Positions 8,330 to 19,910 of a DNA stretch of 64,000 nucleotides are shown here, in pieces (the stretch's first letter is position 1; each line of letters opens with the position of its first letter). The position numbers and the translations under genes are program-made. Where the stretch lies: NCBI RefSeq assembly GCF_018131185.1, contig NZ_JAFCJE010000002.1, forward strand, positions 620,001 through 684,000. Direction: 5' to 3'. The notes under the pieces were generated by a model. The model saw nothing but the letters and a program-made list of their open reading frames with translations, was not told the DNA's origin and made no database searches. The stretch comes from Bradyrhizobium diazoefficiens. GTDB taxonomy: Bacteria > Pseudomonadota > Alphaproteobacteria > Rhizobiales > Xanthobacteraceae.

Positions 8330-9094
8330 ATGGAGTGCCCGTTCTGCGCCGAGACGATCAAGGACGAAGCCATCGCGTGCAAGCACTGCTCGCGCGACCT
8401 GCGCGTGGTGCGGCCGACCTTGCTCGAGATCGAGGAGATCGTCGCCGATCTGGACAAGCTCAGGCGCGATCTCGACCGGGTCAATGTCCGGCTCGAGCGG
8501 TACAAGAATCCGCTGCGCTATTTCACGACGCATGCGGTGCTCTACGTCGCGATACCGTCCCTTCTTCTGGTGATCGCGCACGTGCTCGTGACCATCACTT
8601 TCAACGCGTCTCCGATCCCGCTTCGGATTGCCTCCATCGCCATACCGCTGCTGTTCGGATTCCTGGCCTACCCGCTACACCGGGTTTCGGCCTTGACGGC
8701 CTTTCTGCTGGCGTTCTTGGCGGCGGCCGTCAGCGTGCTGTCGATGCTGACGGTCACCGGGATTCACGATCATGTCCCGATCCTGCCGCAAGCCTGGATC
8801 GAATGGCGGGAAGTGTTCGAATACGGTGCCAGCATCCTGCTCGCCTTCGTCTCGGGAAACATCTTGAGCGTCGTGGTCTTCCAGGTCCTGCCGCGCGTGC
8901 TGACACAGGGCGGCAAACCGAATGCGTTCGCCTTCCGCTCGGCGCGCCTGCTCGGACAGCACGTCGGCGAGGAACAGCTGCGGCGACGCGCCCGCTTGAT
9001 CCAGGACCTGATGCAGACCGTTGGGCCGCTGGTCGGCGTCGCCGCGACCGCGGTCGGCTCGATCTACGCGGGATTGAAGGGCTTGCTTGGATAG
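8330..9094 (+). CDS. Zinc-ribbon multi-pass membrane protein
   Basis: 254 residues starting two bases after the previous stop. It has an N-terminal zinc ribbon (CPFC at 3-6, CKHC at 17-20), a helical linker with coiled-coil character (about 28-58), four membrane helices (about 64-90, 95-118, 120-145, 165-190) and a soluble C-terminal part ending in a hydrophobic stretch (VGPLVGVAATAVGSIYAG). The ribbon is of the same style as that of the 65-residue protein just upstream, so the two may pair. As last gene of the CHAT set it could link cytoplasm and periplasm, but no activity is known. Confidence 0.75.
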   Translation: MECPFCAETIKDEAIACKHCSRDLRVVRPTLLEIEEIVADLDKLRRDLDRVNVRLERYKNPLRYFTTHAVLYVAIPSLLLVIAHVLVTITFNASPIPLRIASIAIPLLFGFLAYPLHRVSALTAFLLAFLAAAVSVLSMLTVTGIHDHVPILPQAWIEWREVFEYGASILLAFVSGNILSVVVFQVLPRVLTQGGKPNAFAFRSARLLGQHVGEEQLRRRARLIQDLMQTVGPLVGVAATAVGSIYAGLKGLLG

Positions 9095-9238
9095 CCAGCC
9101 GTCACCGCTGGCCGTCATGCACGGAAATATCGGATGCCTTGAGGCCCCCGATGCGCGCGTGAGGGCGGCCGCCGGTTGCCATCACGAGGCCGAAGGCGAT
9201 CTCGTCGCGCCTTGGCGCGTCCCACAGCGTCATCTCCG

Positions 9239-9910
9239 GCGACCTACAAGAGCCTCGCCTACCAGCCCGCCGACAGCTTCGAGATGATCTCGACGCTGGT
9301 GTACTACGCACTCGTGATTGCGGTGCGTAACGACCATCCGGCAAAATCACTGGGCGAGCTCATCACCATCGCCAAGGCAAAGCCCGGCTCGCTCAGCTTC
9401 GGATCGGTCGGTTTCGGCAGCACCCACCACCTCGCCGGCGAATTGCTCAACGCCACCGCCGGTGTCGAGATCGTGCACGTGCCGTATCGCGGCGATTCTC
9501 AATCCACCACCGCGCTGCTCGGTGGAGACGTTCCCGTCATCGTCGGCACGCCCGTGCTGCTGGCCCCGCAAATCCAGAGCGGCGCGATCCGTGGCCTGGC
9601 GGTGACCTCGCCGACGCGCACCGCGCTGCTCCCCGATGTTCCGACGGTTCAGGAAGCCGGCATCAAGGGATATGACGTGCGCACCTGGGCAGGCCTGCTG
9701 GCGCCCAAGGGCACGCCGCCCGCCATCGTCGCCGCGCTCAATGCAGCGACGCTGGACGCACTCGGAAACTCGGAAATCAAGCAGCGTCTGGAGACGGCCG
9801 TCGGCGGCGAGGTCCGCGGCAGCTCGCCCGAGGAGATGAAGCGGCTGATCGAGACCGAGATCGCCAAATGGACCGGCGTGGTCGAGCGGGCGAAGATCCC
9901 GAAGATCTGA
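9239..9910 (+). pseudogene. TctC/Bug-type solute-binding protein, N-terminus lost
   Basis: The frame from about 9239 encodes the C-terminal two thirds of a tripartite tricarboxylate transporter binding protein: YKSLAYQPADSFEMIS, then PAKSLGELITIAKAKPGSL, THHLAGELL, HVPYRGDSQS and the end KWTGVVERAKIPKI. Family members run to about 320 residues with a signal peptide and an N-terminal lobe. Roughly the first 110 residues are missing, and upstream DNA in the same frame (from 9176) is Arg-rich nonsense. The join is abrupt near 9236, consistent with a deletion. No TctA/TctB membrane genes are nearby. A re-initiated truncated protein is possible but should not bind ligand normally. Confidence 0.75.
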
Positions 9911-9956
9911 ACCGGGCGGGCGACGGCGGTGCCGGTCGGCACTCGCTCACGAATGC

Positions 9957-9970
9957 TTGATCCGGATCAA
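9957..9970. promoter_or_regulatory. Perfect FNR/FixK-type box before the copper operon
   Basis: TTGATCCGGATCAA is a perfect palindrome matching the FNR consensus TTGAT-N4-ATCAA and the rhizobial FixK/FnrN form TTGA-N6-TCAA. A plausible -10 (TATGTT, 9992-9997) would put the box centre at about -40.5 to -41.5, the class II activator position. The first gene starts at 10040. This points to activation of the efflux operon at low oxygen by a FixK/FNR-family regulator; the binding protein is inferred. Confidence 0.75.
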
Positions 9971-10039
9971 AAAGCGCCACGGGCACCGGGATATGTTACT
10001 AAGGAGGCGCTCCGGCCCCCGAAAGGCAAGTCGATAGAG

Positions 10040-10405
10040 ATGCGGTTCGTCCGTACCATCCTGGCATGTGCAATCGCCCTATCCCTGGCGATGCTGCCCG
10101 TTGGCGCGTCCGCATCCAGCCTTGCAATGTCGTCGGATGACATGCAGGCGACCATGCAAATGGGCGGCGACGCCGAGATGGCGATGGACGATTGCTGTCC
10201 CGACATGAAGGGGACGTCCTCCCAGACCGGCGCCTACAAATGCGGGATGGGTTTTTGCTGCGTCGGCGGCACCATTGCGCTCGACGACATCAGGCCCGTC
10301 GCCTTCGGCCATGTCGTCGTAGCGGCGAGCAGGATCGCCCTTCCTGCCGATCAGGTCGTGTCCGTCCGCGGCGGCAGTCCTCCCTTCCGACCTCCTCGAA
10401 TCTGA
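10040..10405 (+). CDS. Small secreted Cys/Met-rich protein of the copper operon
   Basis: 121 residues from the ATG at 10040, which begins a clean signal peptide (MRFVRTILACAIALSLAML, cleavage near ASA-SS). The mature N-terminus is rich in Met and Asp with paired cysteines (MAMDDCCPDM, later CGMGFCC), a composition typical of periplasmic copper or silver binding proteins. No named family was recognised. It is the first gene after the FNR/FixK box and precedes a YtkA-like protein, CusB and CusA, so metal capture for efflux is the best guess. Confidence 0.65.
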   Translation: MRFVRTILACAIALSLAMLPVGASASSLAMSSDDMQATMQMGGDAEMAMDDCCPDMKGTSSQTGAYKCGMGFCCVGGTIALDDIRPVAFGHVVVAASRIALPADQVVSVRGGSPPFRPPRI

Positions 10406-10504
10406 TCTCGCTGAGCCCGAGACGCGAGCGGCACGCCTGCTCGCGATGACGACTGACGTGCGCGCCATGCGCCACGGCGAGAGATCATTCATGAGGACAG
10501 GACA

Positions 10505-10897
10505 ATGCTTTCCAAGTTCAACACCGCGGCGCTCGCCGCCACCCTTTCGCTTGCCGCTTCCGCCGCGATGGCGGGTGCCGCCGACTACGCCTTCGAGCCC
10601 GTCAATGCGCAAATGAAGAAGGGTGAGGACGTCACTCTTTCCGTTCGCCTGACCAACAAGCAGACCGGCAAGCCGGTGGCGGATGCCGTCATCTTCAAGA
10701 CCCGCATCGACATGGCCCCGGACGGGATGGCCGAGATGGAATCGGCGGTGGCGCCGCTGCCGTCGAAGGAACCGGGCGTCTACGCCTTCAAGACGGACCT
10801 GCCGATGGCCGGCCGCTACCAGGTCACGTTGTCGGCAAAGGTGCAGGGCGAGACGGAGACCGTCACCGGCAAGGTGATCGTCACGGCGACCAAGTGA
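10505..10897 (+). CDS. YtkA/FixH-like periplasmic domain protein
   Basis: 130 residues with a signal peptide (core LAATLSLAASAAMAG, cleavage near AGA-AD). The mature part is a single beta-sandwich of the YtkA-like type: KGEDVTLSVRLTN, GKPVADAVIFKTRIDM, EMESAVAPL, GVYAFKTDLPMAGRYQVTLSAKV. The DMAPDGMAEM segment resembles the Met-containing signature of YtkA/CopC-like folds linked to copper handling. It lies 79 bases before the CusB gene in the same orientation. A periplasmic copper-related role is likely. Confidence 0.7.
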   Translation: MLSKFNTAALAATLSLAASAAMAGAADYAFEPVNAQMKKGEDVTLSVRLTNKQTGKPVADAVIFKTRIDMAPDGMAEMESAVAPLPSKEPGVYAFKTDLPMAGRYQVTLSAKVQGETETVTGKVIVTATK

Positions 10898-10976
10898 GCG
10901 TGCGGACGCCGCTCGCGGCGTCCGAATTTCCCTTTCCCATTCACATGGACGCGCGCCGGGCGCGCGAACACACACC

Positions 10977-12395
10977 ATGAAGACGCTGCGTCTCCTGACG
11001 ACTCTCGCTCTCGGCGGTGGCCTCGCCTTGGCGACGTACTGGTCCTCGAACGACGGGCATTGGTCCGTTCATGCGGAGGTGAACCCGGCTGCGGCCGAGG
11101 CGAATCGAGCTCCGCTCTACTATCGCGACCCCAGTGGTGCGCCGCTCTGGTCCGCCGGTCCGAAGAAGGACGACCGCGGGCGCGACTATTTGCCGGTCTA
11201 CGAGGACAATCAGGCAGAAGCGCCACCGAAGCCGCCTCAAGCGGCGTCATCGCGAAAGATCCTCTACTACCGCAATCCCATGGGCCTGCCCGACACCTCG
11301 CCGGTGCCGAAGAAGGATCCGATGGGGATGAACTACATCCCCGTCTACGAAGGCGACGAGATCGACGACGGCACGGTGAAGCTCTCGCCGGGCAAGATCC
11401 AGCGCACCGGCGTGAAATCCGAACCTGTCGAGCGGCGCGCGATCCGTGTCTCGGTCAAGGCGCCGGGCACGATCCAGCTCGACGAACGCCGCATTTCCGT
11501 GATCGCAATGCGCGCCGAGAGCTTCGTGCAGAAGGTCGCCGACGTCACCACCGGCACGCGGGTGAAGGCGGGGCAGCCCTTGATGGAGATCTACAGTTCG
11601 GCAGTCGCCTCCGCCGCCGCCGAATATCTCGCGACGATCACCTCGAAGACGGTGGGCGGCGTCGAAATGTATGGCCGCGGCTCGCGGCAACGGCTGGTCA
11701 ATCTCGACGTCCCCGAGCAGGTGATCGCCGAGATGGAGCGGACCCGCGTCGCGCCCGTCACCGTGCATTGGTCGGCCCCGCGCGACGGCATCGTGCTCGA
11801 GCGCAGCGCGATCGAAGGCATGCGCGCCAATCCCGGCGATGTGTTGTTCCGAATTGCGGACACCTCGCTGGTCTGGGCGCTGGCCGACGTCGCCGAGCGC
11901 GATCTCGGCAGTATCGCGCTGGGGCAGTCCGTGGCGGTGCGCGCGCGGAGTTTTCCCGGCCGGGTCTTCAGCGGCAAGATCGCGGTCGTCTATCCGCAGG
12001 TGAACCGCGATACAAGAACGGTGCGCGTCCGGATCGAGCTCGCCAACCCCAATGCGGTGCTGCTGCCCGACATGTATGTCGATGCCGACATCGACACCGC
12101 GGATGGCACGCCAGTTCTTGCGATCCAGGACAGCGCGGTGCTCGACACCGGCACGCGCCAGGCCGTCCTCGTCGACAAGGGAGAGGGGCGCTTCGAGCCG
12201 CGCGAGGTGAAGCTCGGCCGGCGCGGCGGCGGTTACATCGAGGTGCGCGACGGACTTGCGGTCGGCGAGGCGGTGGTCACATCCGCCAACTTCCTGATCG
12301 ATGCGGAGAGCAATCTCAAGGCTGCGCTCAAGAGCTTTGGCGAGGCGGCTCCTCCGGCGTCCGAACCTCGCCATGCGACCGGAGATCACAAATGA
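10977..12395 (+). CDS. cusB: CusB-type RND periplasmic adaptor
   Basis: 472 residues, membrane-fusion subunit of a heavy-metal RND efflux pump. After an N-terminal signal/anchor (about 1-25) come two heavy-metal-binding-domain repeats: a degenerate one (LYYRDPSGAPLWSAGPKKD, about 41-70) and a canonical one (YYRNPMGLPDTSPVPKKDP then MGMNYIPVYEG, about 95-125). The adaptor proper follows: beta-barrel and lipoyl halves (VKAGQPLMEIYSSAVASA, DGIVLERSAIEGMRANPG) and a membrane-proximal domain (IQDSAVLDTGTRQAVLV). The stop overlaps the CusA start (ATGA). The PMG/MGM style fits Cu(I)/Ag(I). Confidence 0.88.
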   Translation: MKTLRLLTTLALGGGLALATYWSSNDGHWSVHAEVNPAAAEANRAPLYYRDPSGAPLWSAGPKKDDRGRDYLPVYEDNQAEAPPKPPQAASSRKILYYRNPMGLPDTSPVPKKDPMGMNYIPVYEGDEIDDGTVKLSPGKIQRTGVKSEPVERRAIRVSVKAPGTIQLDERRISVIAMRAESFVQKVADVTTGTRVKAGQPLMEIYSSAVASAAAEYLATITSKTVGGVEMYGRGSRQRLVNLDVPEQVIAEMERTRVAPVTVHWSAPRDGIVLERSAIEGMRANPGDVLFRIADTSLVWALADVAERDLGSIALGQSVAVRARSFPGRVFSGKIAVVYPQVNRDTRTVRVRIELANPNAVLLPDMYVDADIDTADGTPVLAIQDSAVLDTGTRQAVLVDKGEGRFEPREVKLGRRGGGYIEVRDGLAVGEAVVTSANFLIDAESNLKAALKSFGEAAPPASEPRHATGDHK

Positions 12396-15300
12396 TCGCC
12401 CGCATCATCGCCTGGTCGGCGCGCAACCTGCTGCTGGTGCTGTTCGGCACCGGCTTTGCGGCCGCAGCCGGTCTCTATGCGCTGATCCATCTTCCGCTGG
12501 ATGCGATCCCCGACCTCTCGGACACCCAGGTCATCGTCTATACCGAGTATCCTGGCCAGGCGCCGCAGGTGATCGAGGACCAGGTCACCTATCCCCTGAC
12601 GACGGCGATGCTGACCGTGCCGAAATCGAAGGTCGTGCGCGGCTTCTCGTTCTTCGGCGTGTCGTTCGTCTACGTGATCTTCGAGGACGGCACCGACATC
12701 TATTGGGCGCGCTCGCGCGTCCTGGAGTTCCTGAATGGCGCTGCGTCGCGGCTTCCCGCCGGCGTCAGCCCGACCATCGGGCCCGACGCGACCGGCGTCG
12801 GCTGGGTCTATCAGTACGCTGTTCTGTCGAAGGAACTGAACCTCGCGGATACCCGCACGCTCCAGGACTGGAATTTGAAGTTTGCGCTGGCCAAGGCCGA
12901 AGGCGTCGCCGAGATCGCCAGCATCGGGGGCTTCGTCAAGCAGTACAACGTGGTGCTCGATCCCCAGCGGATGCGGGATCGCGGCATCAGCATGCAGAAG
13001 ATTCGGGAGGCGATCCGCGCCAGCAATGCCGACGTCGGCGGACGCACGGTCGAGCTCGCCGAATTCGAGTACGTCATTCGCGGCAAGGGTTACATCAAGG
13101 GCATCAACGATCTCGGCAACATCGTCCTGAAGACGAGCAATGGCACGCCGGTGCTGCTCCGCGACGTTGCCAATGTCGAGCTCGGACCGGACGAGCGCAG
13201 GGGCATCACCGAGCTGAACGGCGAGGGCGAGGTCGCAAGCGGCATCGTGCTGCAACGCTTCGGCGTCAACGCCCTCGACGTCATCGAGAACGTCAAGAGG
13301 CGCTTCAAGGAGATCGCGAGCAGCCTGCCAAAATCGGTGGAGATCGTCCCGGTCTACGACCGCTCCAACCTGATCTACGCGGCCATCGACACGCTCAAGC
13401 ACACGCTGTTCGAGGAGAGCGTCGTGGTTGCGCTGGTCTGCATTGTGTTCCTGCTGCACGTCCGCAGCGCGCTGGTCGCCATCCTGATGCTGCCGGTCGG
13501 CGTGCTGATGGCGTTCGGTGCCATGAAGTTGCTTGGCCTCGGCTCGAACATCATGAGCCTCGGGGGCATCGCGATCGCGATCGGCGCCATGGTGGATGCC
13601 GCGATCGTCATGATCGAGAACGCTCACAAGCATCTCGAACGCGCCAAGCCCGATCAGTCCCGCGTTCAGGTCCTGATCGATGCGGCATCCGAAGTCGGCC
13701 CGGCGCTGTTCTTCAGCCTGCTGATCATCACCGTGTCGTTCATGCCGATCTTCACGCTGGAGTCGCAGGAGGGGCGGCTGTTCAGCCCGCTGGCGTTTAC
13801 CAAGACGTTCTCGATGGCGGCTGCGGCCCTCTTGTCCGTCACCCTGGTGCCGGCGCTGATGGTGATTTTCGTCCGCGGCCGGATCGTGCCGGAGGGCAGG
13901 AATGTCATCAATCGTTTCCTGATCTGGATCTATCGGCCGGTGATCAAGGGCGTGCTTCGCGCCAAGACGCTGGTGATCCTGGCCTCGCTCGTCGTGCTCG
14001 CCGTCACGATATGGCCGGCCCGCCAGCTCGGCACCGAGTTCATGCCGACCCTGAACGAGGGCACGCTGCTCTACATGCCGACGACGCTGCCCGGCATCTC
14101 GGTGACCAAGGCGGCCGAGCTGATGCAGACCCAGGACCGCATCATCAAGTCGTTCCCCGAAGTCGCCTCCGTCTACGGCAAGGCGGGGCGCGCGGCGACC
14201 GCGACCGATCCGGCACCGACCGAAATGTTCGAGACGGTGGTGAACCTGAAGCCGAAGGAGTCCTGGCGCCCCGGCGTCACCATCGACGGTCTCATTGCGG
14301 AGATGGACAAGGCGCTGCAGTTTCCCGGCGTCTCGAACGCCTGGACGATGCCGATCAAGGCGCGCATCGACATGCTGTCGACAGGCATCCGTACGCCTGT
14401 CGGCGTCAAGGTCATGGGCACCGACCTCGTCGAGATCGACCGGCTGGCGCGGCAGGTCGAACGGGTGATCAAGACCGTCCCGGGCACGTCGTCCGCTTAC
14501 GCCGAGCGCGGCATCGGCGGCTACTATCTCGAGATCGTGCCGGACCGCGAGGCGCTCGCCCGCTACGGCATTTTGATCCAGGACGTTCAGGACACCATCG
14601 CGGCAGCGCTCGGCGGCCAGACCGTGACCACGACGGTGGAAGGACGTCAGCGCTTCACGGTGAACATGCGCTACCCCCGTGACCTCCGCGACAATCCCAA
14701 GGCGATCGCTGGCGATATCCTGGTGCCGATGCCGTCGGGCGGCGCCGTGCCGCTCGGCGAAGTCGCGAAGGTCGAGCCGGCGCGCGGGCCGACGTCGATC
14801 CGGACGGAGAACGGTCAGCTCGCGACCTACATCTATGTCGACATCCGCGATCGCGACATCGGAAGTTACGTCGCTGACGCGCAACGCGCCGTGACGGAGA
14901 GCATCCAGTTTCCGGCCGGCACCTATGTGGTCTGGAGCGGCCAGTACGAATATCTGCAACGCGCGGCAGCGCGCCTCAAGATCGTGATCCCCGTGACGCT
15001 CACGATCATCTTCCTGCTGCTGTACCTGAACTTCAGGGCGATGACCGAGACCCTCATCGTCATGCTATCGTTGCCGTTCGCGCTGGTCGGCGGCATCTGG
15101 GTGATGTGGTGGTTCGGCTTCAATCTGTCTGTCGCGGTCGCCGTGGGCTTCATCGCGCTCGCGGGGGTCGCCGCCGAGACCGGCGTCGTGATGCTGATCT
15201 ATCTCGATCACGCGCTGGCGGAGATGAAGGCGAAGCGCAACACCGAGGGCAGCCCGTTCACCCGAAGGGATCTCCACGACGCCATCATGGTGGGCGCCGT

Positions 15301-15577
15301 CGAGCGCGTCCGGCCCAAGATGATGACCGTGGTCGCCATCATGGCGGGCCTGCTGCCGATCATGTGGAGCACCGGTGCCGGGTCGGAGATCATGCAGCGC
15401 ATCGCCCTGCCGATGATCGGCGGGATGATCTCATCGACGCTGCTGACGCTGATCGTGATCCCGGCGATCTTCGGCCTGGTGAAGGGGCGGGGACTGCCTG
15501 ATGACGAGCAGCCGGCGCTCGCCGGGCACGCCGCGGACGCGGCGCGCGGCATGCAAGCTTCGCAAGCGGCCGAATAG
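12392..15577 (+). CDS. cusA: CusA/CzcA-type heavy-metal RND efflux pump
   Basis: 1061 residues, the normal length of the inner-membrane proton/metal antiporter of the HME-RND family. The ATG at 12392 overlaps the adaptor stop and gives the standard start MIARIIAWSARNLLLVLF. Twelve membrane helices are expected: TM1 at about 12-33, TM2-6 within about 340-540, TM7 near 530-550 and TM8-12 within about 865-1045. The TM4 proton-relay segment GAMVDAAIVMIENAHKHLE is the copper/silver-type version. No outer-membrane channel gene follows, so it must use a TolC-like protein elsewhere. Confidence 0.9.
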   Translation: MIARIIAWSARNLLLVLFGTGFAAAAGLYALIHLPLDAIPDLSDTQVIVYTEYPGQAPQVIEDQVTYPLTTAMLTVPKSKVVRGFSFFGVSFVYVIFEDGTDIYWARSRVLEFLNGAASRLPAGVSPTIGPDATGVGWVYQYAVLSKELNLADTRTLQDWNLKFALAKAEGVAEIASIGGFVKQYNVVLDPQRMRDRGISMQKIREAIRASNADVGGRTVELAEFEYVIRGKGYIKGINDLGNIVLKTSNGTPVLLRDVANVELGPDERRGITELNGEGEVASGIVLQRFGVNALDVIENVKRRFKEIASSLPKSVEIVPVYDRSNLIYAAIDTLKHTLFEESVVVALVCIVFLLHVRSALVAILMLPVGVLMAFGAMKLLGLGSNIMSLGGIAIAIGAMVDAAIVMIENAHKHLERAKPDQSRVQVLIDAASEVGPALFFSLLIITVSFMPIFTLESQEGRLFSPLAFTKTFSMAAAALLSVTLVPALMVIFVRGRIVPEGRNVINRFLIWIYRPVIKGVLRAKTLVILASLVVLAVTIWPARQLGTEFMPTLNEGTLLYMPTTLPGISVTKAAELMQTQDRIIKSFPEVASVYGKAGRAATATDPAPTEMFETVVNLKPKESWRPGVTIDGLIAEMDKALQFPGVSNAWTMPIKARIDMLSTGIRTPVGVKVMGTDLVEIDRLARQVERVIKTVPGTSSAYAERGIGGYYLEIVPDREALARYGILIQDVQDTIAAALGGQTVTTTVEGRQRFTVNMRYPRDLRDNPKAIAGDILVPMPSGGAVPLGEVAKVEPARGPTSIRTENGQLATYIYVDIRDRDIGSYVADAQRAVTESIQFPAGTYVVWSGQYEYLQRAAARLKIVIPVTLTIIFLLLYLNFRAMTETLIVMLSLPFALVGGIWVMWWFGFNLSVAVAVGFIALAGVAAETGVVMLIYLDHALAEMKAKRNTEGSPFTRRDLHDAIMVGAVERVRPKMMTVVAIMAGLLPIMWSTGAGSEIMQRIALPMIGGMISSTLLTLIVIPAIFGLVKGRGLPDDEQPALAGHAADAARGMQASQAAE

Positions 15578-15656
15578 GATCGCGAGGCGGATGCCCGCGA
15601 AGCGGTTGCGATAGCGTACCGACGTCAGCAGGGTTGCGTCGCGATGCCGTGGAGCC

Positions 15657-16064
15657 TTAAACCTGTCGCCCTTCCACCACTTCGCCGTCCTCCTTCACGA
15701 AGCGGCCGACGGGATTGTCCAGCAGGTCGATGACGGCCTCCGAGGGGCGGCACAACCGCGTGCCCTTTGGCGTCACGACGACCGGACGGTTGATCAGAAT
15801 GGGATGGGCCAGCATCTGGTCGATCAACTCGTCATCGGTCCATTTCGGGTCGTCGAGACCGAGGTCGTGAAAGGGCGTGCCTTTCTCCCGCAGCAGCGCC
15901 CGAGGGGAGATCCCCATGGCCTTGACGAGCTCGACCAGTCTGTCGCGCGATGGCGGCGTCTTCAGATACTCGATCACGTCAGGCTCGACGCCGCTCTGCC
16001 GGATCATCGCGAGCGTGTTGCGCGAGGTGCCGCAGGCGGGGTTGTGATAGATGGTGACGGTCAT
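15657..16064 (-). CDS. arsC: Arsenate reductase, glutaredoxin-coupled (Spx/ArsC fold)
   Basis: 135 residues, full length for the plasmid R773 ArsC type. The start IYHNPACGTSRNTL carries the catalytic Cys11, which attacks arsenate; conserved basic residues are present in LINRPVVVTPKGTRLCRPSE (Arg positions that hold oxyanion in the family). It reduces As(V) to As(III) using glutathione and glutaredoxin in the cytoplasm. It is the last gene of the leftward ars operon, 54 bases after acr3. The operon also holds a second arsenate reductase of an unrelated fold. Confidence 0.92.
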   Translation of the reverse strand: MTVTIYHNPACGTSRNTLAMIRQSGVEPDVIEYLKTPPSRDRLVELVKAMGISPRALLREKGTPFHDLGLDDPKWTDDELIDQMLAHPILINRPVVVTPKGTRLCRPSEAVIDLLDNPVGRFVKEDGEVVEGRQV

Positions 16065-16118
16065 GATCGGATCTCTACGACAGTAGGCTGGCGTACGCCA
16101 TCAGCGGCATATGGTACG

Positions 16119-17180
16119 TCATTGGCGCGCCTCCAAGGCTGCCGTGGCTTTGCCAGCGCCCGCTTCGTACCAGCCCCGGGTCGCCTTGACGATGCGGACG
16201 ACGGACAGCATCACCGGAACCTCGACGAGCACTCCGACCACGGTCGCCAGCGCAGCGCCGGAATCCAGGCCGAACAGGCTGATTGCGGCGGCAACCGCCA
16301 GCTCGAAGAAGTTGCTCGCGCCGATCAGGGCGGCCGGAGCGGCTACGCACCAGGCTACGCCGAACCGTCGGCTCAGCCAGTACGCCAACCCGGCGTTGAG
16401 ATAGACCTGGACCAGAATCGGCACTGCGAGAATGGCAATGACTCCCGGCTGCCTGACGATCTGCTCGCCCTGGAAGCCGAAAAGCAGCACCAGCGTCGCG
16501 AGCAGCGCAACCAGAGAAAGAGGCTGCAGTATTCGCATGGCGTGGCCGAAGCTGTCACCGCCATTTCGCAGCAGTGCCTTGCGCCAGAGCTGTGCGACGA
16601 TCACCGGGACCACGATGTAGAGAAGAACGGACAGCAACAAAGTGCCCCACGGGACGGTGATCGACGCCACTCCGAGCAGTAACCCCACGAGCGGAGCGAA
16701 CAGGAACACCATGATGACGTCGTTCAGCGCCACCTGACTGAGGGTATAGTGCGGCTCTCCCTCGCAGAGGTTCGACCATACGAATACCATCGCGGTGCAA
16801 GGCGCGGCTGCCAGCAGAATCAACCCAGCGATATAGGAGGAAATCTGGCCGGCCGGCAGCCATGGTGCGAAGAGGTGACCGATGAAGAAGGAGCCAAGCA
16901 GCGCCATCGAGAACGGCTTCACCGCCCAGTTGATGAAGAGGGTGATGCCGACACCGCGCCAATGCTCCCGGACCTGGCCCAGCGAGCCGAAGTCGATCTT
17001 CAGCAACATGGGCACGATCATCAGCCAGATCAGCAACGCCACCGGAATGTTGACCTTGGCGATCTCGGCGGCTGCGACCGCGCCGAAGAAACCGGGCATG
17101 GCGTGTCCCAGCGCGACGCCGACGACGATACAAAGCGCAACCCACAGAGTGAGATATCGTTCGAAAGTACCCATGGTCAC
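16119..17180 (-). CDS. acr3: Arsenite efflux transporter, Acr3 family
   Basis: 353 residues with about ten hydrophobic helices, the size and pattern of Acr3 (BART superfamily) carriers that export As(OH)3 with proton exchange. The conserved cysteine of TM4 is seen at Cys128 in LLAAAPCTAMVFVWSNL, and the TM9 Glu-containing segment appears as ASNFFELAVAAAISLFG. The start is GTG overlapping the end of the upstream arsC; an internal ATG two codons later is an alternative. Overlap implies coupled translation of reductase and exporter. Confidence 0.92.
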   Translation of the reverse strand: MTMGTFERYLTLWVALCIVVGVALGHAMPGFFGAVAAAEIAKVNIPVALLIWLMIVPMLLKIDFGSLGQVREHWRGVGITLFINWAVKPFSMALLGSFFIGHLFAPWLPAGQISSYIAGLILLAAAPCTAMVFVWSNLCEGEPHYTLSQVALNDVIMVFLFAPLVGLLLGVASITVPWGTLLLSVLLYIVVPVIVAQLWRKALLRNGGDSFGHAMRILQPLSLVALLATLVLLFGFQGEQIVRQPGVIAILAVPILVQVYLNAGLAYWLSRRFGVAWCVAAPAALIGASNFFELAVAAAISLFGLDSGAALATVVGVLVEVPVMLSVVRIVKATRGWYEAGAGKATAALEARQ

Positions 17181-17704
17181 GCCACATCGTTCCTGTTGGA
17201 AGTCGTCCCTTCGCTGTGGCCAATCTCGCGCAGCCTGGTGCCGAGCGAGAGCTTGTCGATGCTCCTCAACGGGAGGCTTACAAAAGCGTCGATCCGGTTC
17301 TTCAAATGGCGGAATGTAGTGATGAACGCGACCTGCTTGTCGAGGTCGGAGCCTTCGGCGGCGGCAGGGTCCTCGATGCCCCAGTGCGCCGTCATCGGCT
17401 GACCCGGCCAGATCGGACAGGATTCACCGGCGGCGTTGTCGCAAACGGTGAAGACGAAATCCATCACCGGCGCATCGGGCGCGGCGAACTCGAGCCAGCT
17501 CTTCGAGCGCATTCCGTCGATCGGGTAGTCCATGATCTGAAGCGTCCGCAGCGCCAGCGGATGCACCGCGCCCTTCGGAGTGCTCCCGGCTGAGAACGCC
17601 CGAAAGCGGCCCGCGCCATCCTCGCGCAGGATCGACTCGGCGAGGATCGAACGCGCCGAATTGCCGGTACACAGAATCAGCACGTTGTAGATCTGGTCAG
17701 CCAC
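17177..17704 (-). CDS. arsC: Arsenate reductase, low-molecular-weight phosphatase type
   Basis: 175 residues from GTG. The P-loop LCTGNSARS (Cys12) is that of LMW protein tyrosine phosphatase-type arsenate reductases, and a Cys pair (Cys88 and Cys96 in VCDNAAGESCPIWPG) matches the redox relay of the thioredoxin-coupled class. The catalytic Asp of classic phosphatases is replaced by the WGIEDPA segment, as usual in this branch. A C-terminal extension (about 145-175) is unassigned. It starts 8 bases before the ArsR stop and ends overlapping acr3. Confidence 0.9.
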   Translation of the reverse strand: MADQIYNVLILCTGNSARSILAESILREDGAGRFRAFSAGSTPKGAVHPLALRTLQIMDYPIDGMRSKSWLEFAAPDAPVMDFVFTVCDNAAGESCPIWPGQPMTAHWGIEDPAAAEGSDLDKQVAFITTFRHLKNRIDAFVSLPLRSIDKLSLGTRLREIGHSEGTTSNRNDVA

Positions 17705-18059
17705 GGCTTCTCTCCTTTCGCTTCGGCGAGCAGCAGGATTGCAGGGTTTGAACGACGGGCTCGCAAACTTCGGGGCGTCCGCCGCAGCAATCGCGCAGCA
17801 GGAAGACCGCGATGTCGCGAAATTCGTCGAGGTTGGCGCGATAGACGATCGAGCGGCTGTGCCGCTCGGACGACACGAGGCGTGCGCGGCTCAGGATCGC
17901 TAGGTGCGCCGAAAGCGTGTTCTGGGGGACCTCCAGCAGGCGGGCGAGATCGCCTGCCGCAAGTCCGTCGGGCTCGTGTCGGACCAGCGTCCGGAAGGCC
18001 TCCAGACGGGTCGATTGGGACAATGCTGCGAGCGCCAGTACAGCTTCTTCGGTTTCCAT
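17697..18059 (-). CDS. arsR: ArsR-family arsenic-responsive repressor
   Basis: 120 residues with a winged-helix domain (about 8-85): ALAALSQSTRLEAFRTLV, then the recognition helix VPQNTLSAHLAILSRA and wing RHSRSIVYRANLDEF. Candidate arsenite-binding cysteines are clustered after the DNA domain (RDCCGGRPEVC, about 91-101, and SCC near 109-110), unlike the classic ELCVCDL site, so sensing is by a C-terminal Cys set. It is first gene of the leftward ars operon and overlaps arsC by 8 bases. A near-perfect promoter sits so close that the mRNA may be leaderless. Confidence 0.88.
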   Translation of the reverse strand: METEEAVLALAALSQSTRLEAFRTLVRHEPDGLAAGDLARLLEVPQNTLSAHLAILSRARLVSSERHSRSIVYRANLDEFRDIAVFLLRDCCGGRPEVCEPVVQTLQSCCSPKRKERSRG

Positions 18060-18062
18060 ATA

Positions 18063-18095
18063 TCCAGATTTATGGAATTATTGAGTGTGCGTCAA
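18063..18095 (-). promoter_or_regulatory. arsR promoter with overlapping dyad
   Basis: On the minus strand TTGACG (18095-18090), a 17-base spacer and TAAATC (18072-18067) form a sigma-70-like promoter. The expected start point is near 18060, one base before the arsR ATG, so the transcript may be leaderless. A dyad TCCA-N6-TGGA (18063-18076) covers the -10 and is a likely autoregulatory operator. All read from sequence; untested. Confidence 0.55.
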
Positions 18096-18114
18096 CCGGA
18101 GAAGGGCGGGGGGT

Positions 18115-18140
18115 TATATTTCGAATGTTCTAGAAATATA
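18115..18140. promoter_or_regulatory. Palindromic operator between the two arsR genes
   Basis: TATATTTC...GAAATATA form perfect 8-base arms around a 10-base centre. The core TTCGA-N3-TTCTAGAAA (18120-18136) recurs at 18514-18530 before the flavoprotein gene. A TTGACA -35-like hexamer (18142-18147) follows directly. The site is well placed for repression of the rightward transcript by one of the ArsR proteins. Confidence 0.6.
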
Positions 18141-18178
18141 GTTGACACGAATCCGAGAATGGGCGCATGTTATCGATC

Positions 18179-18496
18179 ATGAAGATCGATGACGCAGCAG
18201 CGCGGCTGGAAGCCCTGGGTAACCGGACCCGGCTGCAGATCTATCGGGCCCTCGTCCGGGCCGGGCACGCCGGCATGCCCGTCGGCCGCTTGCAGGACAA
18301 GCTGAAGATCCCGGCCTCGACGCTGTCCCACCACATCAAGAGCCTGGTTTCGGTCGGGCTCGTCAGTCAGGTGCGCGAATCCACCAGCCTGGTCTGTCAC
18401 GCGAACTATGACACGATGCGAGGCCTGCTCGATTTCATGGCGGCGGAATGTTGTGCCGACGAGGCCGAATGCAAGGGTACGCAAACGGCGGCCTGA
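18179..18496 (+). CDS. Second ArsR/SmtB-family regulator
   Basis: 105 residues from the ATG at 18179; an in-frame ATG at 18167 adds four residues. The winged helix reads ARLEALGNRTRLQIYRALV, ASTLSHHIKSLVSVGLV, and wing VRESTSLVCHANY. Cysteines lie at the C-terminus (ECCADEAEC, about 91-99), a pattern parallel to the first ArsR but in a clearly different protein. It is divergent from the ars operon and leads the flavoprotein-MFS pair, which it probably controls. Thiophilic metalloid sensing is inferred from the Cys cluster. Confidence 0.82.
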   Translation: MKIDDAAARLEALGNRTRLQIYRALVRAGHAGMPVGRLQDKLKIPASTLSHHIKSLVSVGLVSQVRESTSLVCHANYDTMRGLLDFMAAECCADEAECKGTQTAA

Positions 18497-18513
18497 TCTT
18501 TTTTGTCCGTTTA

Positions 18514-18530
18514 TTCGATGATTCTAGAAA
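18514..18530 (+). promoter_or_regulatory. Repeat of the ars operator before the flavoprotein gene
   Basis: TTCGATGATTCTAGAAA shares TTCGA-N3-TTCTAGAAA with the site at 18120-18136. It ends 15 bases before the flavoprotein start, overlapping where a ribosome site and start region lie. It may allow separate control of the downstream genes. Confidence 0.5.
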
Positions 18531-18545
18531 AATGGGAGAAGTAGA

Positions 18546-19910
18546 ATGAGCGAGAAGACGGTTGCGATCATCGGGGCAGGGCCGGTTGGCCTTGCGGCGG
18601 CCGCGCACGTGCTCGAACGCGGCATGTCGCCCATCGTGCTCGAGGCCGGAGGTGAGGCCGCCCACGCGGTCCGCCAGTGGCAGCACGTCCAGCTCTTTTC
18701 GCCGTGGGAATACAATGTCGACAAGGCGGCGGCGCGCCTGCTGGCGCCGACGGGATGGAATTCGCCGGACCCGCAATCCTATCCGACCGGCGGCGAGCTG
18801 ATCGAGCGCTACCTCGAGCCGCTCGCGACGCGAACGCCGCTGCGCGAGGCGATCCGGACCTCGAGCCGCGTCACGGCGATCAGCCGGGCCGGCTACGACA
18901 AGGCGAAGACGAAGGGCAGGGAGCAGGCGCCATTCGAAATCCGTTATCAGAACGGCAAAGGTCCCGAGGCGCTGCGCGCCGACGCCGTCATCGATGTGTC
19001 AGGCACGTGGTTCTCGCCCAATCCCGCCGGCAGCAACGGTCTGCCCGCGATCGGCGAACACGAGCGCACGGACCGCATCGCCCATGGCATGCCGGACGTG
19101 CGGGGCACAAGGCGCGCCAGATATGCCGGGAAGACCGTCGCCGTGCTCGGTGCCGGCCATTCCGCCGTGGGCACGCTGATCGATCTCGTGCAACTCGCTG
19201 ACGAAGTGCCCGGTACCAGGCCGGTCTGGCTCCTGCGCGGCACTGAACCCGCGAAGGCCTTCGGCGGCGGTAGCAACGACCAGCTTGCCGCGCGCGGCGA
19301 GCTTGGCTCGACCTTCGCCGCGCTCGTCGCTGCGGGCAAGATCGCGGTCGAGACCGGATTCGGCGTGACGCACGTGTCGGATTCCGAGGGCCGCCTCAGG
19401 ATTTCGGCCGGCGCCTGTTGCGGCGCGCGCAGCGTGATTGCAGATGAGCTGATCGTCGCAACCGGCTTTCGCCCGGACCTTTCATTTCTGTCCGAGCTGC
19501 GGCTTCGGCTCGACCCGGCCATCGAAGCGCCGGTCGCGCTCGCGCCGCTGATCGATCCCAACGAGCACAGCTGCGGCACAGTCCGTCCTCACGGCGCGCG
19601 CGAGCTCGCGCATGACGAGCCGGGCTTCTACATCGCCGGCATGAAATCCTACGGCCGAGCGCCGACCTTTCTGATGACGACCGGCTACGAGCAGGTCCGC
19701 TCCATCGCCGCCGACATCGCCGGCGACAAGGCGGCCGCAGCGCGCGTCGAGCTGGTCTTGCCGGAGACCGGCGTCTGCACGCGCGGCGGGGTGGAGTCGG
19801 GGGCTGCGGCGGGATGTTGCGGCGGTCCGGCCAAGGAAGATGTCTCGGCGTGCTGTGCCGCCGACGAGACGGCGAAGAAGGCGGGCGCTTCCGGCTGCGG
19901 CTGCTCATGA
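18546..19910 (+). CDS. FAD/NAD(P)-dependent oxidoreductase with Cys-rich tail (ars-linked)
   Basis: 454 residues after a GGAGAAG ribosome site. Two Rossmann motifs are clear: AIIGAGPVGLAAAAHVLERG (about 7-26) for FAD and AVLGAGHSAVGTL (about 199-211) for NAD(P), with an ATGFRPDLSFL segment near 310. This is the layout of flavin monooxygenase/thioredoxin-reductase-like enzymes, as in the ArsO group found in some ars operons. The last 35 residues carry six cysteines (CCGG, ACC, GCGC), probably a metalloid-binding or redox tail. Translation is coupled to the MFS gene (ATGA). The substrate is unknown; arsenical oxidation or reduction is plausible. Confidence 0.78.
   Translation: MSEKTVAIIGAGPVGLAAAAHVLERGMSPIVLEAGGEAAHAVRQWQHVQLFSPWEYNVDKAAARLLAPTGWNSPDPQSYPTGGELIERYLEPLATRTPLREAIRTSSRVTAISRAGYDKAKTKGREQAPFEIRYQNGKGPEALRADAVIDVSGTWFSPNPAGSNGLPAIGEHERTDRIAHGMPDVRGTRRARYAGKTVAVLGAGHSAVGTLIDLVQLADEVPGTRPVWLLRGTEPAKAFGGGSNDQLAARGELGSTFAALVAAGKIAVETGFGVTHVSDSEGRLRISAGACCGARSVIADELIVATGFRPDLSFLSELRLRLDPAIEAPVALAPLIDPNEHSCGTVRPHGARELAHDEPGFYIAGMKSYGRAPTFLMTTGYEQVRSIAADIAGDKAAAARVELVLPETGVCTRGGVESGAAAGCCGGPAKEDVSACCAADETAKKAGASGCGCS

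Follow-up and report, generated by a model that had tools for sequence, protein, structure and literature searches.

A copper efflux operon of Bradyrhizobium diazoefficiens with a conserved FixK/FNR-type box and a CutF-like leader: a putative two-input switch

Described relatives and operon layout

FixLJ relays low oxygen to activate FixK2, whose regulon in Bradyrhizobium diazoefficiens covers low-oxygen respiration and copper delivery, including fixNOQP and the PCu(A)C operon bsr7087-blr7088. The FixK2 box is described as TTGA/C-N6-T/GCAA, and in Bradyrhizobium FixK2 regulates fixNOQP through a box of this type (PMC9104804); its reported targets include hemN, ompW, nap and fixO/fixP (PMC6515984). 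A different mode of control is represented by R. capsulatus CutF (cutFOG), a short exported leader with a Cys motif and a Pro-rich C terminus, encoded ahead of copper genes and followed by a stem that shields the next Shine-Dalgarno sequence. CutF-like genes have been reported upstream of RND pump genes. In Bordetella pertussis, CruR (DUF2946, with a C-terminal RAPP) likewise heads a metal operon and, as in its relatives, keeps a fixed distance of about 45 residues between CxxC and RAPP (PMC9426467). CruR works with Rho termination, and copper lowers expression. The E. coli CusCFBA pump, controlled by CusRS, matters most in the absence of oxygen.

The operon studied here, in a window of 64,000 nucleotides from B. 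diazoefficiens (contig NZ_JAFCJE010000002.1, positions 620,001 to 684,000), shares features with each of these systems, and what is new is that a copper pump stands under both a FixK-type promoter and a CutF-like leader. The first-pass annotation had proposed the gene order Cys/Met-rich secreted protein, YtkA-like protein, CusB and CusA, with which the open reading frames and profile matches agree (Table 1); the start of cusA overlaps the end of cusB by 4 bp. CusA scores 1229 bits against TIGR00914 (CusA/CzcA; cut-off 701), and its 1247 bits against E. coli CusA (3k07), compared with 559 bits against the zinc pump ZneA, place it among CusA-type permeases. Met occupies all three positions aligned with the E. 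coli copper methionines (YMPTTLPG, TEMFET and IDMLSTG), whose numbering we take to be M573, M623 and M672, and CusB aligns with E. coli CusB, including the Met-containing N-terminal stretch. Given these scores, the matched methionines and the CusB alignment, the operon probably encodes a Cu(I)/Ag(I) efflux pump. The operon differs from E. coli CusCFBA in that neither the outer membrane channel CusC nor CusF is found among its open reading frames and CusRS is absent, with YtkA and the leader instead. Between ytkA and cusB lies a terminator-like hairpin of 9 bp (10903-10924), which could reduce the downstream message or serve in its processing.

Table 1. Features of the operon and its promoter, numbered from the first nucleotide of the window
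Feature	Position	Strand	Detail
TCACGAATGC, conserved 10-bp element abutting the upstream edge of the box	9947-9956	+	0.86-1.64 bits/column, 55 promoters
FixK/FNR-type box TTGATCCGGATCAA, predicted class II activator site	9957-9970	+	Centred near -41.5
-10-like TATGTT	9992-9997	+	21 bp after the box; TATGnTA columns 1.3-1.56 bits
Cys/Met-rich exported leader protein, CutF/CruR-like	10040-10405	+	121 aa, C terminus SPPFRPPRI
CCTCCTC, codons of the PPR motif, predicted anti-Shine-Dalgarno	10391-10397	+	Codon choice near-invariant
Predicted RNA structure pairing the PPR/stop-codon region with the ytkA ribosome-binding site	10391-10497	+	Folds and swap tests
GAGGA, ytkA Shine-Dalgarno	10493-10497	+	Masked in the predicted fold
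YtkA-like periplasmic protein	10505-10897	+	PF13115, E 2e-20; weakly FixH
CusB, periplasmic adaptor	10977-12395	+	HlyD_D23, 1.6e-68; Met-containing N-terminal repeats
CusA, Cu(I)/Ag(I) RND pump	12392-15577	+	ACR_tran; TIGR00914 CusA/CzcA

The FixK/FNR-type promoter and its candidate regulators

A full FNR/FixK palindrome with a -10 element at the class II position had been claimed ahead of the leader gene, and this description holds up in the orthologues. Within the window, TTGAT-N4-ATCAA has a single perfect occurrence, TTGATCCGGATCAA, and there are 18 perfect sites in the whole 6.94 Mb genome, compared with none for a reversed-pattern control. We assembled a footprint sample of 60 orthologous promoters from the operon's own branch (Bradyrhizobium, Nitrobacter and Afipia), taking boxes at <=180 bp from the leader start. 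The strict form TTGA-N6-TCAA is present in 53/60 and the relaxed form (TTGA/C-N6-T/GCAA) in 55/60, and the gap to TATGNT is exactly 21 bp in 49/60. Information content reaches 1.8-2.0 bits per column in the box arms and about 1.3-1.6 in the -10 element, and most columns further upstream stay below 0.55. Since box and gap are kept at these frequencies while the flanking DNA has diverged, the box is not a chance occurrence and, judged by this comparison, is a maintained class II site. The same 21-bp gap, which is class II spacing, predicts a transcription start near 10005. In three divergent copies (L060, L061 and L059), the box lies further upstream of the leader gene and is accompanied by a second, sigma-70-like promoter (TTGAC...18-19 bp...TATG).

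The genome also encodes the expected type of activator. The fixK2 gene (C12:296154-296849) adjoins the ccoN region, and its product is 93% identical to FixK2 of B. diazoefficiens USDA110; the recognition helix is unaltered, and the redox-active Cys is retained. A perfect box of the same kind stands 70 bp upstream of ccoN, other perfect boxes precede genes that inspection by eye suggests are hemA, ompW and nap, and FixK2 matches are found in 203 of 265 genomes of the genus (E<=1e-100). Together, the conserved box, its fixed gap to the -10 element and the presence of FixK2 with FixK2-type targets make control of the operon by a FixK/FNR-type activator well supported by sequence comparison. The operon thus shares with the FixK2 regulon the same 14-bp box and the presence of the same regulator gene, but copper efflux operons of this type are not among the targets in PMC6515984 and PMC9104804, and the orthologous operon of the best-studied strain, USDA110, belongs to a branch whose sampled promoters mostly carry no box (see below).

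Which CRP/FNR protein acts at the box is less certain. A FixK1-like paralogue (C12:153901), an FNR-type protein with a Cys cluster (C21:128067) and an NnrR-type NO sensor (C19:472409) are all encoded in the genome; the first two have the ETVSR recognition helix in common with FixK2, and the box does not distinguish between any of these proteins. That one of these proteins takes the place of FixK2 is possible, if somewhat doubtful, as FixK2 is widespread in the genus and is the known actor on this box type at fixNOQP (PMC9104804). FixK2 is therefore the most likely activator.

The conservation of TCACGAATGC, immediately upstream of the box, matches that of the -10 element in most columns, and the element may be the site of a further regulator. 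We rejected a role as a general copper box, because the 11 other copies of TCACGAATGC in the genome lie mostly within long open frames; in this genome the element is specific to the operon. Promoters of the second cus branch carry TCGTGA, to which TCACGAATGC is similar when reversed. GAATGC...GA(A/C)TGC forms a candidate direct repeat for a second regulator, the second copy of which overlaps the expected -35 region.

Exceptions to the box were found in two Nitrobacter loci (L133 and L134), where it is broken (the 13-bp TTGAGCGGATCAA, or CTGAGCGGGATCGA) and the adjoining TCACAAAT(G/A)C and the -10 element are kept. Loss of FixK was rejected as the cause, as both species have a FixK homologue. 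In Afipia birgiae (L140), the fixK2 homologue itself appears split (G296:C1:2684815-2688180), with residues 17-147 and 144-232 about 2.7 kb apart in an insertion-like arrangement.

A second branch of the operon, with identities of about 70% for CusB and about 50% for YtkA, has promoters mostly without the box, and both branches are present in some genomes (for example G034). By CusA and YtkA identity, the USDA110 copy belongs to this second branch, with its CusA orthologue at 5,467,144 (87% identical). In B. diazoefficiens, the CusA/CzcA gene blr4112 is induced by microoxia, with a log2 change of 4.8 in protein and a 6.4-fold change in mRNA (PMC6515984). We rejected this induction as support: placed in the USDA110 genome by its gene number and + strand, blr4112 corresponds to the gene at 4,544,845, a paralogue only 34% identical to the studied CusA, so that its induction says nothing about the operon described here.

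The leader protein and the RNA around the ytkA start

The leader combines a signal-peptide-like start (judged by eye), a CC/KCGMGFCC Cys cluster and a C-terminal PPFRPPR. The published filters for CutF-like proteins (<150 aa, a signal peptide, PP within the 15 C-terminal residues, and a downstream gene on the same strand at <=1000 nt; PMC9973294) all select it, with the signal peptide read by eye. From the last Cys to the residue before PP there are 42 residues in 54 of the 57 distinct homologues in its own branch, and 41-42 in 39 of the 41 proteins of the second branch, a distance kept despite divergence of the sequence between and reminiscent of the fixed spacing in CruR. The CxxxC copper motif of R. 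capsulatus CutF is not present in the leader, which has CC...C-x4-CC here and CC...CxxC-x5-C in the second branch; Cys motifs also vary among CutF-like clusters (PMC9973294). The DUF2946 Pfam profile (PF11162) gives no match to the leader even at E 10, and the CopL profile reaches 14.9 bits, below its cut-off of 40. In view of the DUF2946 mismatch, the likeness to CutF and CruR is to be read as one of working alike, with family membership unproven. By analogy with CutF, the leader has the appearance of a translational copper sensor.

The codons of the PPR motif are the rare series CCT-CCT-CGA, and their choice is strongly constrained: within the operon's own branch, the first Pro is CCT in 54/57 and the second in 55/57. 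Among the Pro codons of the branch 1 leader tails, 164/226 are CCT, compared with 139/2475 (5.6%) in cusB of the same loci. In the RNA, CCUCCUC is complementary to the GAGGA that precedes ytkA about 100 nt downstream. One could suppose that CCT-CCT-CGA is kept to slow the ribosome and that the RNA pairing is a by-product, since CCT and CGA are indeed rare here. Rarity alone cannot explain the preference, as CCA is equally rare overall yet nearly absent from the PPR prolines of branch 1 (CCT 109, CCA 4). With the co-variation of the arms outside the codons (described next) also standing against it, we regard codon slowing as the primary cause as quite improbable.

At 102 of the 103 loci folded, the minimum-energy structure joins the ytkA GAGGA to the PPR codons. 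When the 3' end of the leader is treated as occupied, the predicted mean probability that the Shine-Dalgarno sequence is unpaired rises from 0.11 in the intact RNA to 0.51, with an increase in 89 of 90 loci. Because the invariant core of Shine-Dalgarno and anti-Shine-Dalgarno cannot itself reveal co-variation, the core was left out of an arm-swap comparison, in which own arms paired at -13.5 kcal/mol, swapped arms at -11.2 +/- 0.25 and arms swapped within a branch at -12.5 +/- 0.21, relatedness being only partly removed in this design. In both swap tests, the observed pairing energy was reached by 0/5000 shuffles. Other measures are more modest: the RNAalifold covariation term is small (-0.65), no common structure was found by RNAalifold in the mixed-branch alignment A2, and the single-sequence fold is unexceptional compared with shuffles (z -1.1). 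No known riboswitch or RNA family was found in 9000-18600. Taken across loci, the comparison points to RNA pairing between arms that co-vary.

The arrangement therefore resembles that of R. capsulatus CutF in its exported leader, Cys motif, Pro-rich C terminus, stem over the next Shine-Dalgarno and downstream copper genes, and differs from it in that the operon encodes a pump and not a multicopper oxidase, the Cys residues are not arranged as CxxxC, the anti-Shine-Dalgarno lies within the PPR codons, and transcription is under a FixK-type box. Compared with CruR, the distance from the Cys motif to the C-terminal PP is similarly fixed, but the RAPP of CruR is encoded by frequent codons, whereas the PPR here uses rare codons complementary to the Shine-Dalgarno sequence.

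A proposed mechanism with oxygen and copper as inputs

We propose that under low oxygen the box, at its class II position, is occupied by an activator of the FixK/FNR type, with FixK2 as the most likely one, and that this activator recruits RNA polymerase, giving a message that would begin with the leader. During export, the Cys cluster of the leader would bind periplasmic copper, and the copper-bound leader would hold the ribosome at the C-terminal PPR codons. As these codons are also the predicted ytkA anti-Shine-Dalgarno, a ribosome positioned there would open the stem and allow translation of ytkA, which cusBA translation would follow by coupling. The oxygen step of this model is drawn from the box, and the copper step from the CutF analogy together with the RNA and codon evidence. 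The first-pass annotation had suggested oxygen in place of a metal sensor; the conserved box, its spacing and FixK2 favour the oxygen part, whereas the replacement of metal sensing is not borne out, as the leader has the features of a copper sensor and lies over RNA that masks a Shine-Dalgarno sequence. With a CutF/CruR-like first gene and the next ribosome-binding site masked, oxygen and copper are probably both inputs, and we consider it probable that FixK-type transcription under low oxygen is combined with translation of ytkA-cusBA set by periplasmic copper. It seems that the cell makes the pump only where low oxygen and copper coincide.

A simpler account would make the operon an ordinary member of the FixK2 regulon that responds to oxygen only, with the Cys/Met protein as a plain periplasmic copper-binding partner of the pump. 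The strong conservation of box and spacing would fit such an account, as would the neighbourhood, in which no metal-sensor gene is conserved beside the operon in this branch; an arsenic cluster downstream of cusA contains arsC-like genes, an arsenite-transporter-like gene (SBF family) and two ArsR genes, which go with the arsenic genes. However, a fixed Cys-to-PP distance, near-invariant CCT-CCT-CGA codons and pairing of the Shine-Dalgarno sequence by co-varying arms at about 100 loci would be surprising in a protein that simply binds metal, and control by oxygen only is in our judgement unlikely.

The sign of the copper effect could also be the opposite, with copper relieving stalling and lowering downstream expression, possibly via Rho, as in Bordetella CruR, which works in this way with a similar layout (PMC9426467). 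CruR, however, controls a TonB-dependent transporter, and the genes downstream of the present leader export copper. In addition, the ribosome-binding site here is covered by the PPR codons themselves, so that a ribosome stalled on them would open it. We see only a small chance of a CruR-like sign, and propose instead that copper raises expression, as would suit exporters.

In its fullest form, the model is a switch with two keys, in which a shortage of oxygen, acting through FixK, supplies the message and a copper sensor, nascent and exported, governs its reading, the codons of the stalling motif being themselves the anti-Shine-Dalgarno, with TCACGAATGC perhaps providing a third input; we see this version as evenly balanced between right and wrong. 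If true, rhizobia would couple copper detoxification to their oxygen supply; in these bacteria Cu(I), the more toxic form, is favoured at low oxygen, and copper is required by the high-affinity cytochrome oxidase. A link of the operon to cbb3 oxidase assembly is plausible. Furthermore, the CutF/CruR idea would reach a pump operon in which the next ribosome-binding site is concealed by the very codons used for stalling.

Several further observations concern the surroundings of the operon. Two imperfect FixK/FNR-type boxes, TTGACGCCGATCAA (952-965) and TTGCTTGGGATCAA (1015-1028), are candidate sites placed before a small membrane-protein reading frame (992-1297) that has no assigned family. The TctC-family receptor reading frame at 9176-9910 matches its profile only from position 49, and its N terminus looks truncated. 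On the conjugative BTAi1 plasmid pBBta01 (L227), the operon copy is preceded by a heavy-metal P-type ATPase gene (copA) with a CsoR-like regulator and followed by an ECF-type sigma factor with a DUF1109 protein, together with other copper genes.
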